The notes beneath the pieces are model-generated. The model saw only the letters and a list, made by a program, of their open reading frames with translations, was not told the DNA's origin and searched no databases. Source: Granulicella sp. (GTDB lineage Bacteria; Acidobacteriota; Terriglobia; Terriglobales; Acidobacteriaceae). From it: 49,005 nucleotides of DNA. Where the stretch lies: assembly GCA_003138795.1 (NCBI GenBank), contig PLHC01000076.1, forward strand, positions 1-49,005, in the 5' to 3' direction. Shown here piece by piece: positions 31,098 to 34,786 of the stretch (positions are counted from its first letter, which is position 1; every line of letters starts with the position of its first letter). The translations under genes and the position numbers were made by a program.

Positions 31098-31385
31098 GTG
31101 ATTCCGGTGCACCTGAATGAGTTGGCGCCGCCGGCGGTGGGGGCTGTGTTTCCCGGAGTGGCGTATCAGCCTGGTAACCTGCTTGCGTCGCGAAACAGTG
31201 TCTTTCAGACGGGGATTGCGGCGCACTTCTGGTTCCCGGTGGAGTTTGGGGTGATCCACGAGCGCGGGGCGATCAAGGTGTATGGCAGCGGGCTGGTTTC
31301 GTCGCATGGCGAGTGCACGCATGTGGTGGAGTCGTTCGACCAGATCTACGAGGCGGCAAAAGAGGCGGAGTCGCGGCTGGGTTGA
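31098..31385 (+). CDS. Short protein resembling the C-terminal catalytic segment of biopterin-dependent aromatic amino acid hydroxylase (truncated)
   Basis: AAHFWFPVEFGVIHERGAIKVYGSGLVSSHGECTHVVES resembles the PAH YWFTVEFGLIxExGxLKxYGAGxLSSxGE block. No HxxxHExxGH segment in the ORF. Confidence 0.5.
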   Translation: MIPVHLNELAPPAVGAVFPGVAYQPGNLLASRNSVFQTGIAAHFWFPVEFGVIHERGAIKVYGSGLVSSHGECTHVVESFDQIYEAAKEAESRLG

Positions 31386-31396
31386 TGGGGCGTTGT

Positions 31397-31425
31397 TTGA
31401 CGGCTTGGGGGTGCGCGGCTACGCT
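31397..31425 (+). promoter_or_regulatory. Sigma70-like promoter TTGACG-N17-TACGCT
   Basis: -35 TTGACG 31397-31402, 17-bp spacer, -10 TACGCT 31420-31425; 6 nt to the ATG at 31432. Confidence 0.55.
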
Positions 31426-31431
31426 TGAGAG

Positions 31432-31506
31432 ATGAGTCTTTCGCGCATCGCAGCTTGTTGTCCTTGTCCCGGCCTTGAGGCCTCGGACGCTGCTGCTCGA
31501 AGATGA
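31432..31506 (+). CDS. Candidate leader peptide MSLSRIAACCPCPGLEASDAAARR with a Cys-Cys-Pro-Cys cluster (not in the supplied ORF track)
   Basis: ATG...TGA 24 codons read directly; Cys codons TGT TGT CCT TGT at 31456-31467; upstream of sulfite reductase operon and followed by an intrinsic terminator. Confidence 0.65.
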   Translation: MSLSRIAACCPCPGLEASDAAARR

Positions 31507-31531
31507 GCAAATGCTGAGAGTTACCCCGAGT

Positions 31532-31564
31532 GCCCACGAATGATCTCGTGGGCCTTTGTTTTTT
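31532..31564 (+). terminator. Rho-independent terminator/attenuator between leader peptide and sulfite reductase
   Basis: GCCCACGA-atgatc-TCGTGGGC followed by ctttgtttttt; lies in the leader immediately before the downstream CDS. Confidence 0.8.
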
Positions 31565-31567
31565 GAG

Positions 31568-33313
31568 ATGGATTGGAGAAACCCGTTGAGCGAAGCCGTT
31601 AACCCTGGTACGAGTGCCGTTGCAGTGAAAGAGACGAAAGCGCAGAGGTCTGAACGCCTGAAGCGCGAGAAGAATCCGTGGGCGGCTTGGGACGAGGTGC
31701 GGCAGTTTGCGCGCGCGGGCCGCGGGAGCGTGCTGCCGGAGTGGGCTGAGTTCTACTTTAAGTGGTGGGGAGTCTATTCGCAGGGCGATGGTGTGGGTGT
31801 GACGGGCGGAGTGGGCGGCGTAGGCAAGGCTACTGAATATTTCATGATGCGCATTGGGCTGCCGAATGGGCTGCTGACGGCGAAGCAAGTGCATGCGATC
31901 GCAGACATCACGGCGAAGTATGCGCGTGGTGTGGCGGACATTACGACGCGGCAGAATATTCAGCTGCACTGGCTGACGATTGAGAAGCTGCCGGAGATTG
32001 TGGAGGCGCTGACCGAAGTTGGGTTGTCGCCGAAGGGAGCTTGCGGCGATGTGGTGCGTAATGTGACCGGATGTCCTCTGGCTGGGCGGGATGGCCATGA
32101 GTTGCTGGATGCGTCGCCGCTGGCGGTGGAGGTGGCGCGTTTGCTGACGGCGAATCCGGAGTTTTATAACCTGCCGAGGAAGTTCAAGATCTCGGTGACG
32201 GGTTGCCCGATCTGGTGCAGCTATCCGGAGATCAACGATGTGGGGTTGACCGGCCTGAAGCGTGTGAAGGATGGCAGGGGGGAGGTTGGCTATAGCCTGC
32301 GCGTGGGCGGAGGGCTTTCGGCCGAGCCGCATCTTGCGGTGCGGTTGAATGTGTTTATTCCGCAGGACAAGGCGCTGGATGTGGTGAAGACCGTGTGCGA
32401 GATCTTCCGCGAGCAGGATGCGCTGCGTGAGAGCCGGACGCATGCGCGAATGAAGTATCTGTTTATGCGCCATGGATGGACGGCAGAGTCGATGCTCGCG
32501 GCGATTGAGGAGAAGCTTGGGTACAGGTTCGATCCGGCTGAAGAAGGGCCGGTTGCGGATGATGTGTATCGCGACCATGTAGGCGTGCACAGGCAGCGGC
32601 AGGAGGGGCAGAGCTACGTAGGAGTGACGGTGCTGAATGGCCGGCTGAACCCGGAGCAGCTTCATGCGCTGGCAGCCTTGTCCGAGACGTACGGAGACGG
32701 GCATCTGCGCGCGACGATTGGGCAAAATATCGTGCTGGTGAATATTCCGAATGCGAAGACACAGGAGCTGGTGGAGAAGATCGTCGCGCTGGGGTTGCAG
32801 GTTGAGCCGTCGGTGTTTTATCGCGGTGCGGTGGCTTGTACGGGAACGGAGTTTTGCAAGCTGGCGATCGCGGAGACGAAAGGGTTTGCGAAGTGGCTTG
32901 TCGGGGAGATGGAGGAGCGGCTGCCGGAGTTCGATCAGCAACTGCGGCTGCATGTGACGGGCTGCACGAACAGTTGCGGACAGAGCTGGATTGCGGACCT
33001 GGGGCTCGAGGGTAAGAAGTTGAAGAAGGACGGCAAGATGGTCGATGCGTTCTACTTCTGCGTCGGCGGCGCTGTTGGTGAGTATGCAGGGATTGCGCGG
33101 CAGATCGGGTATCGTGCGGCTGCGGAGGATTGCCCGGAGGCGATCGAGCGGTTGCTGCGTGGGTATCTCAAGCAGCGCCGTGAGGGCGAGAATCTGCGCT
33201 CGTACTTCCGGCGCACCAGCGATGAGGATCTGAGGGTGCAGCTTGCGGGAGGTGTCGTGGAGCTGGTGGAACGCGATCCGTCGCCGGGACGCGTTCCCAG
33301 CAATATTGGCTAA
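31568..33313 (+). CDS. Nitrite/sulfite reductase family protein (siroheme/4Fe-4S; probably assimilatory ferredoxin-type). Start could be TTG 31586
   Basis: VRNVTGCPLAGRDGHELLDASPL, CTGTEFCKLAIAETKGFA, LHVTGCTNSCGQSWIADLGLEG siroheme/FeS motifs. Confidence 0.92.
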   Translation: MDWRNPLSEAVNPGTSAVAVKETKAQRSERLKREKNPWAAWDEVRQFARAGRGSVLPEWAEFYFKWWGVYSQGDGVGVTGGVGGVGKATEYFMMRIGLPNGLLTAKQVHAIADITAKYARGVADITTRQNIQLHWLTIEKLPEIVEALTEVGLSPKGACGDVVRNVTGCPLAGRDGHELLDASPLAVEVARLLTANPEFYNLPRKFKISVTGCPIWCSYPEINDVGLTGLKRVKDGRGEVGYSLRVGGGLSAEPHLAVRLNVFIPQDKALDVVKTVCEIFREQDALRESRTHARMKYLFMRHGWTAESMLAAIEEKLGYRFDPAEEGPVADDVYRDHVGVHRQRQEGQSYVGVTVLNGRLNPEQLHALAALSETYGDGHLRATIGQNIVLVNIPNAKTQELVEKIVALGLQVEPSVFYRGAVACTGTEFCKLAIAETKGFAKWLVGEMEERLPEFDQQLRLHVTGCTNSCGQSWIADLGLEGKKLKKDGKMVDAFYFCVGGAVGEYAGIARQIGYRAAAEDCPEAIERLLRGYLKQRREGENLRSYFRRTSDEDLRVQLAGGVVELVERDPSPGRVPSNIG

Positions 33314-33338: not shown

Positions 33339-33989
33339 ATGAGTTTGTTTCCGATCTTTCTGAAGCTTGCGGCGCGGCCATGCGTGGTGGTGGGCGCGGG
33401 GAATATTGCGGCGTCGAAGATTGAGAGCCTGCTGATTGCGGAGGCGAGCGTGACGGTGATTGCGCCGGAGGCTCTGCCGCGCGTGCGGGCGTGGGTGGAG
33501 GCGGGCGAGCTAACGTGGCACCAGCGGGCGTATCGGCAGGGGGATCTAGGTGGTGCGTTTCTCGTGGTTGCGGGAACAGCTACGCCTGCCGTGAACCGCG
33601 CGGTGTATGCGGAGGCGAGTGCGGCGGGGATTCTGTGCAATGCGGTGGATGATCCGCCGTTCTGCGACTACTACTTTCCGTCGGTGGTGCGGAGAGGCGA
33701 GTTGCAGATTGCAATCTCGACTGCGGGGGAGAGCCCGGCGCTGGCACAGCGGCTGAGGAAGGAGATCAATGCGCAGTTGCCGCTGGATACGGGTGAGTGG
33801 CTGATGGAGCTGGGACGTCTGCGGCGTGAGGTTACGGCTGTGGAGCCGGTTGGCGAGGAGCGAAAATTGTTGCTGCATGAGCTGGCGCAGCGCGAGGTGT
33901 GCGGGTATGCAGGGTGTCCTTCGCGGATGAGGGCACAGCAGCATGCGCGGGAGCATGGATTCCTTCCGGCTAAGGAGATTGCTGGATGA
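33339..33989 (+). CDS. Precorrin-2 dehydrogenase/sirohydrochlorin ferrochelatase (CysG N-terminal/Met8-like)
   Basis: MSLFPIFLKLAARPCVVVGAGNIAASKIESLLIAEASVTVIAPEA; FPSVVRRGELQIAISTAGESPALAQRLRKEI. Confidence 0.93.
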   Translation: MSLFPIFLKLAARPCVVVGAGNIAASKIESLLIAEASVTVIAPEALPRVRAWVEAGELTWHQRAYRQGDLGGAFLVVAGTATPAVNRAVYAEASAAGILCNAVDDPPFCDYYFPSVVRRGELQIAISTAGESPALAQRLRKEINAQLPLDTGEWLMELGRLRREVTAVEPVGEERKLLLHELAQREVCGYAGCPSRMRAQQHAREHGFLPAKEIAG

Positions 33990-34786
33990 GCTTCGCGGCG
34001 AAAGGGACAGTCTATTTGGTGGGCGCGGGGCCGGGCGATCCGGAGCTGCTGACGGTGCGTGCGCTGCGGCTGCTGGAGACGGCGGATGTGGTGTTGCATG
34101 ATGACCTTGTGCCGGAGGAGGTGCTTGCACTGGTGCATCGTCATGCGCTGATTACGAGTGTGGGCAAGCGCTGTGGACGGCCGCGGATTACGCAGGCGGG
34201 GATCCATACGCTGATGATCGAGTCGGCAAGGGCGGGGCAGTCGGTGGTGCGGCTGAAGAGTGGCGACCCGCTGGTGTTTGGGCGAGCGGGCGAAGAGATT
34301 GCTGCGCTGCGAGCGGCGGAGATTCCGTTTGAGGTGGTTCCGGGCGTGACGGCGGCGTTCGCGGCAGGAGCGGCGCTGGCGCTGCCTCTGACGGATCGCA
34401 AGAGTGCGTCGAAGCTGATCTTCTGCACCGGACATCATGCTGCGGAGAAGATAGGCGCGAGGCCGATCTGGAGTGGGACCCTGCCCGAGGATGCGACGCT
34501 GGTGGTGTATATGCCGGGTCGCGATATGGCAAGGATCGCGCGGGAGCTTCGGGAGGCGGGTGTGGGTGAGGATGTGGCGTGCTGCGCGATCTCGCACGCG
34601 GCTACGTCGCGACAGAGTTATGCGGCAGCGATGCTGGGGGAGCTGCCGGAGTTGGTGTGCGGACCCGCGCCGCTGCTGCTGCTGATTGGGCGAGCAATGC
34701 AGGGACTGCTCGATGCAGATGGAGTGGATGCGGCTGCGTTGACGGTGATCGACGAAGCTGCGGCGGAGATGCGTGGAGAGAGTTAG
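33986..34786 (+). CDS. cobA: Uroporphyrinogen-III C-methyltransferase
   Basis: VYLVGAGPGDPELLTVRALRLLETADVVLHDDLV; VRLKSGDPLVFGRAGEEIAALRAAEIPFEVVPGVTAA. Confidence 0.95.
   Translation: MSFAAKGTVYLVGAGPGDPELLTVRALRLLETADVVLHDDLVPEEVLALVHRHALITSVGKRCGRPRITQAGIHTLMIESARAGQSVVRLKSGDPLVFGRAGEEIAALRAAEIPFEVVPGVTAAFAAGAALALPLTDRKSASKLIFCTGHHAAEKIGARPIWSGTLPEDATLVVYMPGRDMARIARELREAGVGEDVACCAISHAATSRQSYAAAMLGELPELVCGPAPLLLLIGRAMQGLLDADGVDAAALTVIDEAAAEMRGES

Follow-up and report, generated by a model that had tools for sequence, protein, structure and literature searches.

A conserved Cys-Cys leader and intrinsic terminator as the probable cysteine-responsive attenuator of a sulfite reductase–siroheme operon in Granulicella

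What governs expression of the sulfite reductase–siroheme operon in soil bacteria such as Granulicella sp. is a question raised by the short stretch of DNA which precedes it. A first-pass annotation of the window (the whole 49,005-nucleotide stretch of contig PLHC01000076.1 analysed here) had proposed a cysteine-responsive transcription attenuator at this position. Sequence comparison, drawing on a leaderless-type promoter, conserved Cys-Cys codons, a terminator, the content of the operon and a pairing which co-varies within the genus, indicates that the leader is real and conserved. Positions 31397–31565 very probably constitute a cysteine-responsive transcription attenuator of the operon, and from the same features we infer the response to cysteine itself. 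The elements to which we refer below are as follows.

31397–31402, plus strand: -35 element TTGACG, a 5/6 match to TTGACA, with a 17-nt spacer to the -10 element.
31420–31425, plus strand: -10 element TACGCT (TANNNT), 6 nt before the leader ATG.
31432–31506, plus strand: leader peptide ORF of 24 codons (MSLSRIAACCPCPGLEASDAAARR), predicted to be leaderless, with ATG at 31432 and TGA at 31504–31506; kept upstream of orthologs.
31456–31461, plus strand: candidate control codons TGT TGT (Cys9-Cys10), at 31456 and 31459; invariant in 26/26 genus leaders.
31465–31467, plus strand: TGT codon for the third Cys (Cys12), kept less strictly than the pair, with Cys in 17/26 genus leaders.
31471–31480, plus strand: putative antiterminator 5' strand (GGCCUUGAGG), from folding and a partner-swap test; its first nucleotide lies 12 nt downstream of the T which opens the second TGT.
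31524–31534, plus strand: putative antiterminator 3' strand, from folding; shares its last 3 nt with the start of the terminator stem.
31532–31553, plus strand: intrinsic terminator stem-loop, GCCCACGA-atgatc-TCGTGGGC, then CTTTGTTTTT; CCCAC/GTGGG invariant in 26 genus leaders.
31554–31565, plus strand: U-tract of the terminator, read from the sequence.
31586–33313, plus strand: siroheme-dependent ferredoxin sulfite reductase (NirA/SirA family; PF01077/PF03460; closest solved structure 1zj8, NirA).
33339–33989, plus strand: CysG N-terminal domain (siroheme synthase, N-terminal; TIGR01470 above cut-off).
33986–34786, plus strand: CobA, uroporphyrinogen-III C-methyltransferase (TIGR01469 above cut-off).

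The 24-codon ORF and its three Cys codons lie exactly where they were originally described. The position at which the region had been said to begin is also a real one, being the first nucleotide of the -35 hexamer; the promoter to which that hexamer belongs, and the leaderless prediction which follows from it, had been missed. Given the spacing of TACGCT, transcription is expected to begin at or adjoining the A of the leader ATG, and the leader mRNA is thus predicted to be leaderless, with no need of a Shine-Dalgarno sequence. This prediction, made from the position of the -10 element, concerns a promoter whose parts recur among orthologs: a TTGNNN hexamer at 17 nt in most of them, and TANNNT at 6–9 nt upstream of the start codon in 28/29 leaders. 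Leaderless genes have been predicted to make up about 13% in Acidobacteria (PMC3160421).

The terminator was likewise found precisely where the first-pass annotation had put it. The reductase coding sequence had been placed only a few nucleotides beyond it, and here the annotation must be amended. The mechanically assigned start (31556) falls within the U-tract, whereas the plausible start, judged by reading frame and a Shine-Dalgarno sequence (GGAG, 31575–31578), is the TTG at 31586, 32 nt past the terminator stem. The content of the operon, reductase followed by CysG N-terminal domain and CobA, is upheld by the family matches listed above. The closest solved structure, 1zj8, is M. tuberculosis NirA, and its PDB name is nitrite reductase. 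We take this protein to be a ferredoxin-dependent sulfite reductase, and the substrate of the enzyme considered here is presumably sulfite rather than nitrite. A NirA/SirA-type reductase together with siroheme genes fits the synthesis of the amino acid proposed to be sensed by the leader. On either side of this region, a 95-aa ORF at 31098–31385 matches biopterin-dependent phenylalanine hydroxylase (PF00351) over the enzyme's C-terminal part only and is apparently a truncated remnant, similar sequence occupying the same place upstream in several relatives. An alpha/beta hydrolase gene related to homoserine O-acetyltransferase MetX (NF005071; 34783–35871, minus strand) is convergent with cobA and overlaps its end by a few bases.

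Close orthologs of the reductase were present in 27 of 28 genus genomes, our own included, and 26 of these retained upstream DNA; the contig of the 27th ends just inside the terminator and was left outside the count. All 26, again including our own, carry a short ORF with TGT-TGT, whose start codon follows a TANNNT by 6–9 nt, and a terminator before the reductase gene, the CCCAC/GTGGG stem lying 25–55 nt downstream of the leader stop codon. A covariance model (R1) matched the leader in 26 of the 28 genomes and found two extra copies; as it was built from the same leaders, its recovery counts mainly for those two copies. One relative has a second, orphan copy of leader and terminator (locus L080, 4231–4363, minus strand; MSFLPTALCCLRLGIEALASAAG), followed by an apparent separate promoter and a TIM-barrel gene. 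The original proposal had staked itself on conservation of the reading frame and Cys codons: both are conserved in the genus and the family, along with promoter and terminator.

Searching the regions upstream of reductase orthologs, as had been suggested, revealed a Cys-Cys short ORF followed by a terminator at most loci. Among 78 Acidobacteriaceae loci, which included Granulicella, Edaphobacter, Terracidiphilus, Acidipila, Paracidobacterium, Silvibacterium and many MAGs, 64 passed a strict scan for a leaderless -10 element and Cys-Cys, and 62 of these had a terminator. A relaxed scan of the 14 which failed showed 11 to have a Cys-Cys ORF and terminator behind a weaker -10 element. At the remaining three of the 78 reductase loci neither scan found a Cys-Cys ORF with a terminator; one is that of Terriglobus roseus DSM 18391, where no Cys-rich leader lies upstream of the sulfite reductase ortholog and where the leader has apparently been lost or replaced. 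Leaders in other genera of the order are of the MCCCP-, CCCRC- and CGCCC- types; in the neighbouring family the reductase is preceded by the polycysteine ORFs MFTTSQAMCCCPFL, MSHAKRNSAPCCCRCS and MLHAATMACCCRCRHSLPA. A polycysteine ORF and terminator also lie upstream of a more distantly related reductase in other genera. Relatives of the reductase from the phylum's other classes showed no leaderless Cys-Cys leader upstream.

Codon choice within the leader is also constrained. The Cys-Cys pair is encoded by TGT in 52 of 52 codons across the genus, while the remaining Cys codons in these leaders are divided between TGT (19) and TGC (15). In the reductase genes TGT accounts for only 12% of Cys codons (41, against 298 TGC), and its enrichment among all leader Cys codons relative to those genes is pronounced (Fisher, 7e-39). 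The Ala codons neighbouring Cys-Cys differ chiefly at the third position, the pattern expected of coding sequence. These patterns fit selection for the less-used codon TGT at a sensing position, although UGUUGU might conceivably act as an RNA sequence rather than as codons.

Before turning to mechanism, explanations other than transcription attenuation deserve consideration. Were the ORF a non-regulatory accident in the gap which separates the upstream gene's terminator from the operon, a terminator at this point would not be odd, given that the phenylalanine hydroxylase remnant ends at 31385. Conservation of promoter, codons and terminator across many genera contradicts such an accident, however, as does the rarity of the arrangement. 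We scanned both strands of the whole window for TANNNT, 5–8 nt, ATG or GTG and a short ORF with Cys-Cys, and the leader was the sole leaderless ORF of this kind; 588 kb of dinucleotide-shuffled window sequence yielded six, none with a terminator. We therefore regard coincidence as having a negligible chance of being correct. Only marginally more credible, and still very improbable, is a functional Cys-rich microprotein which binds metal or takes part in redox chemistry, with the terminator merely insulating the operon. Cys-rich peptides can bind metal and the ORF is conserved, but outside the Cys-Cys pair the peptide varies freely, both in its residues and in its length (15 to 32 aa), a synonymous codon is maintained, and the location of the ORF ahead of sulfur genes does not change.

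A closer competitor, albeit an improbable one, is translational attenuation of the mycobacterial kind, in which the position of the ribosome on a polycysteine ORF governs access to the reductase ribosome binding site, with the hairpin playing a subsidiary part. PMC13236596, citing Canestrari 2020, describes mycobacterial polycysteine leaderless ORFs in these terms, and many cysD leaders in the genus, discussed below, have no obvious terminator. Against this, a stem and U-rich tract occur in nearly every sulfite reductase leader, and the gap separating the terminator from the point where the reductase match begins varies between a few and about 120 nt, a spread which leaves no constant pairing with the ribosome binding site.

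Under transcription attenuation, the reading we prefer, the leader would operate as follows. Transcription would start from the leader ATG and a ribosome would initiate on the leaderless mRNA. With sufficient Cys-tRNA it would clear TGT-TGT and enter the following sequence, after which the GCCCACGA/TCGTGGGC hairpin and U-tract would stop transcription. With Cys-tRNA scarce, the ribosome would pause at the TGT codons, and RNA beyond its edge (from 31471) could pair with 31524–31534 before the second arm of the terminator was made, delaying or blocking the terminator and allowing polymerase to read into the operon. Both ribosome stalling and dependence on cysteine we infer from the layout of these elements.

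Several observations bear on the proposed pairing. The putative antiterminator 5' strand starts roughly at the expected edge of a ribosome paused on the second TGT, and when the leader is folded without the terminator 3' arm the region after the Cys codons pairs back on the stretch before and into the 5' arm. In a partner-swap test across the genus, leaders paired more strongly with their own partners than with those of other species (z -6.2, against -1.2, sd 1.0, for shuffled, composition-preserving controls), and the long-range helix showed matched changes (CUUGGGG/CCCCAAG, CCUGGGG/CCCCAGG and CUCAGGG/CCCUGAG); a stricter 7-nt pairing test gave a p of only 0.02. In the swap test outside the genus a reversed control scored equally high, and RNAalifold recovered no consensus antiterminator from the region without the terminator 3' arm, where the sequence alignment slips. 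On these comparisons a long-range, antiterminator-like pairing co-varies within the genus.

Whether this pairing functions as an antiterminator is the weakest step of the proposal, and we put its chances at about even. Equilibrium folding with a ribosome on the Cys codons did not favour antitermination, the probability of the terminator remaining near 1 in 25/26 genus leaders. The genus helix occupies about 2.6 nt of the terminator 5' arm, no more than does shuffled upstream sequence, and in 8 of the 26 members it covers less than 1 nt, abutting the arm without overlap. In other genera the overlap was 5.6 nt with a stalled ribosome and 2.8 nt with one at the stop codon (shuffled, 4.5 nt). In both sets, more of the arm was covered with the ribosome at Cys than at the stop codon, a direction which, in these folding models, agrees with attenuation. 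Since the terminator prevails at equilibrium also when the ribosome is stalled, any antitermination would need to be a kinetic effect, with the switch acting during the brief interval before the second terminator arm exists. In classical attenuators such as trp, terminators are also more stable than antiterminators.

Other sulfur genes may be governed in a similar manner. Much of the genus has a leaderless short ORF at about -260 from cysD. Some of these leaders are Cys-rich (MKGVYCCCQCFSCCCC and MANCRICACVLNCNCCCCLAYSSGCICR, the latter with a terminator-like hairpin downstream and a non-canonical -10 element), while a second type reads RIARCPxQxG. In our own genome the ORF at about -262 from cysD (locus L119, G000:C77) is MGNFSQRIARCPGQSGIR, whose one Cys codon is TGT; its R[IV]ARC motif, kept in many relatives, resembles RIAACCPCP of the window leader. 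One genus member has a polycysteine leader (MKPSHAAALCCMPCRMLCCAGVCMA) and terminator before a PF03601 gene, of a putative sulfate exporter family (locus L081, 267–420), and 30 loci upstream of cysK showed no Cys leader. We lean slightly towards a Terriglobia-wide cysteine regulon built on leaderless Cys leaders with TGT as sensor, independent of the actinobacterial systems, in which the reductase would be controlled through termination and the cysD operon through a second, partly terminator-free leader.

No Rfam family matched the leader region at gathering or permissive thresholds, and an NCBIfam scan of the leader peptides gave no match. As of 2010, hardly any of the attenuators predicted in Acidobacteria had been linked to a function (PMC2965389), and among the papers we searched none described a cysteine attenuator in Acidobacteria. 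The leader offers a family-wide, testable example in which a cysteine leader peptide is combined with an intrinsic terminator, and brings attenuation together with predicted leaderless translation in a second phylum. It also suggests selection of a rarely used synonymous codon as sensor. Sulfur assimilation would, very probably, switch on only under cysteine shortage.

The nearest known relatives are the mycobacterial polycysteine leaderless sORFs (Canestrari et al. 2020), which, as reported in the citing literature, share the leaderless ORF with a Cys run before sulfur assimilation genes and act as cysteine-responsive attenuators. That system belongs to another phylum and is described as translational (PMC13236596), whereas nearly all members of the Acidobacteriaceae leader have an intrinsic terminator; the leader is for this reason filed as a variant, rather than a member, of the mycobacterial attenuators. 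Seliverstov et al. 2005 (PMC1262725) reported candidate cysteine leader peptides in Mycobacterium, Propionibacterium acnes and Bifidobacterium (B. longum), likewise short ORFs with runs of Cys codons before cys operons. Those Cys codons lay near the stop codon, no conserved candidate terminator hairpin was present and the mechanism was left open; the terminator described here is the very element whose absence left the actinobacterial leaders unexplained. The trp, leu and his attenuators similarly combine end-product codons, alternative RNA pairing and an intrinsic terminator before the first structural gene, but they are led by a Shine-Dalgarno sequence, while the Acidobacteriaceae leader has a predicted leaderless start, is directed at cysteine and, in the genus, has only partial overlap between antiterminator and terminator. 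Set against these systems, the leader is a terminator-bearing variant of the cysteine leader peptides, in a phylum other than Actinobacteria.
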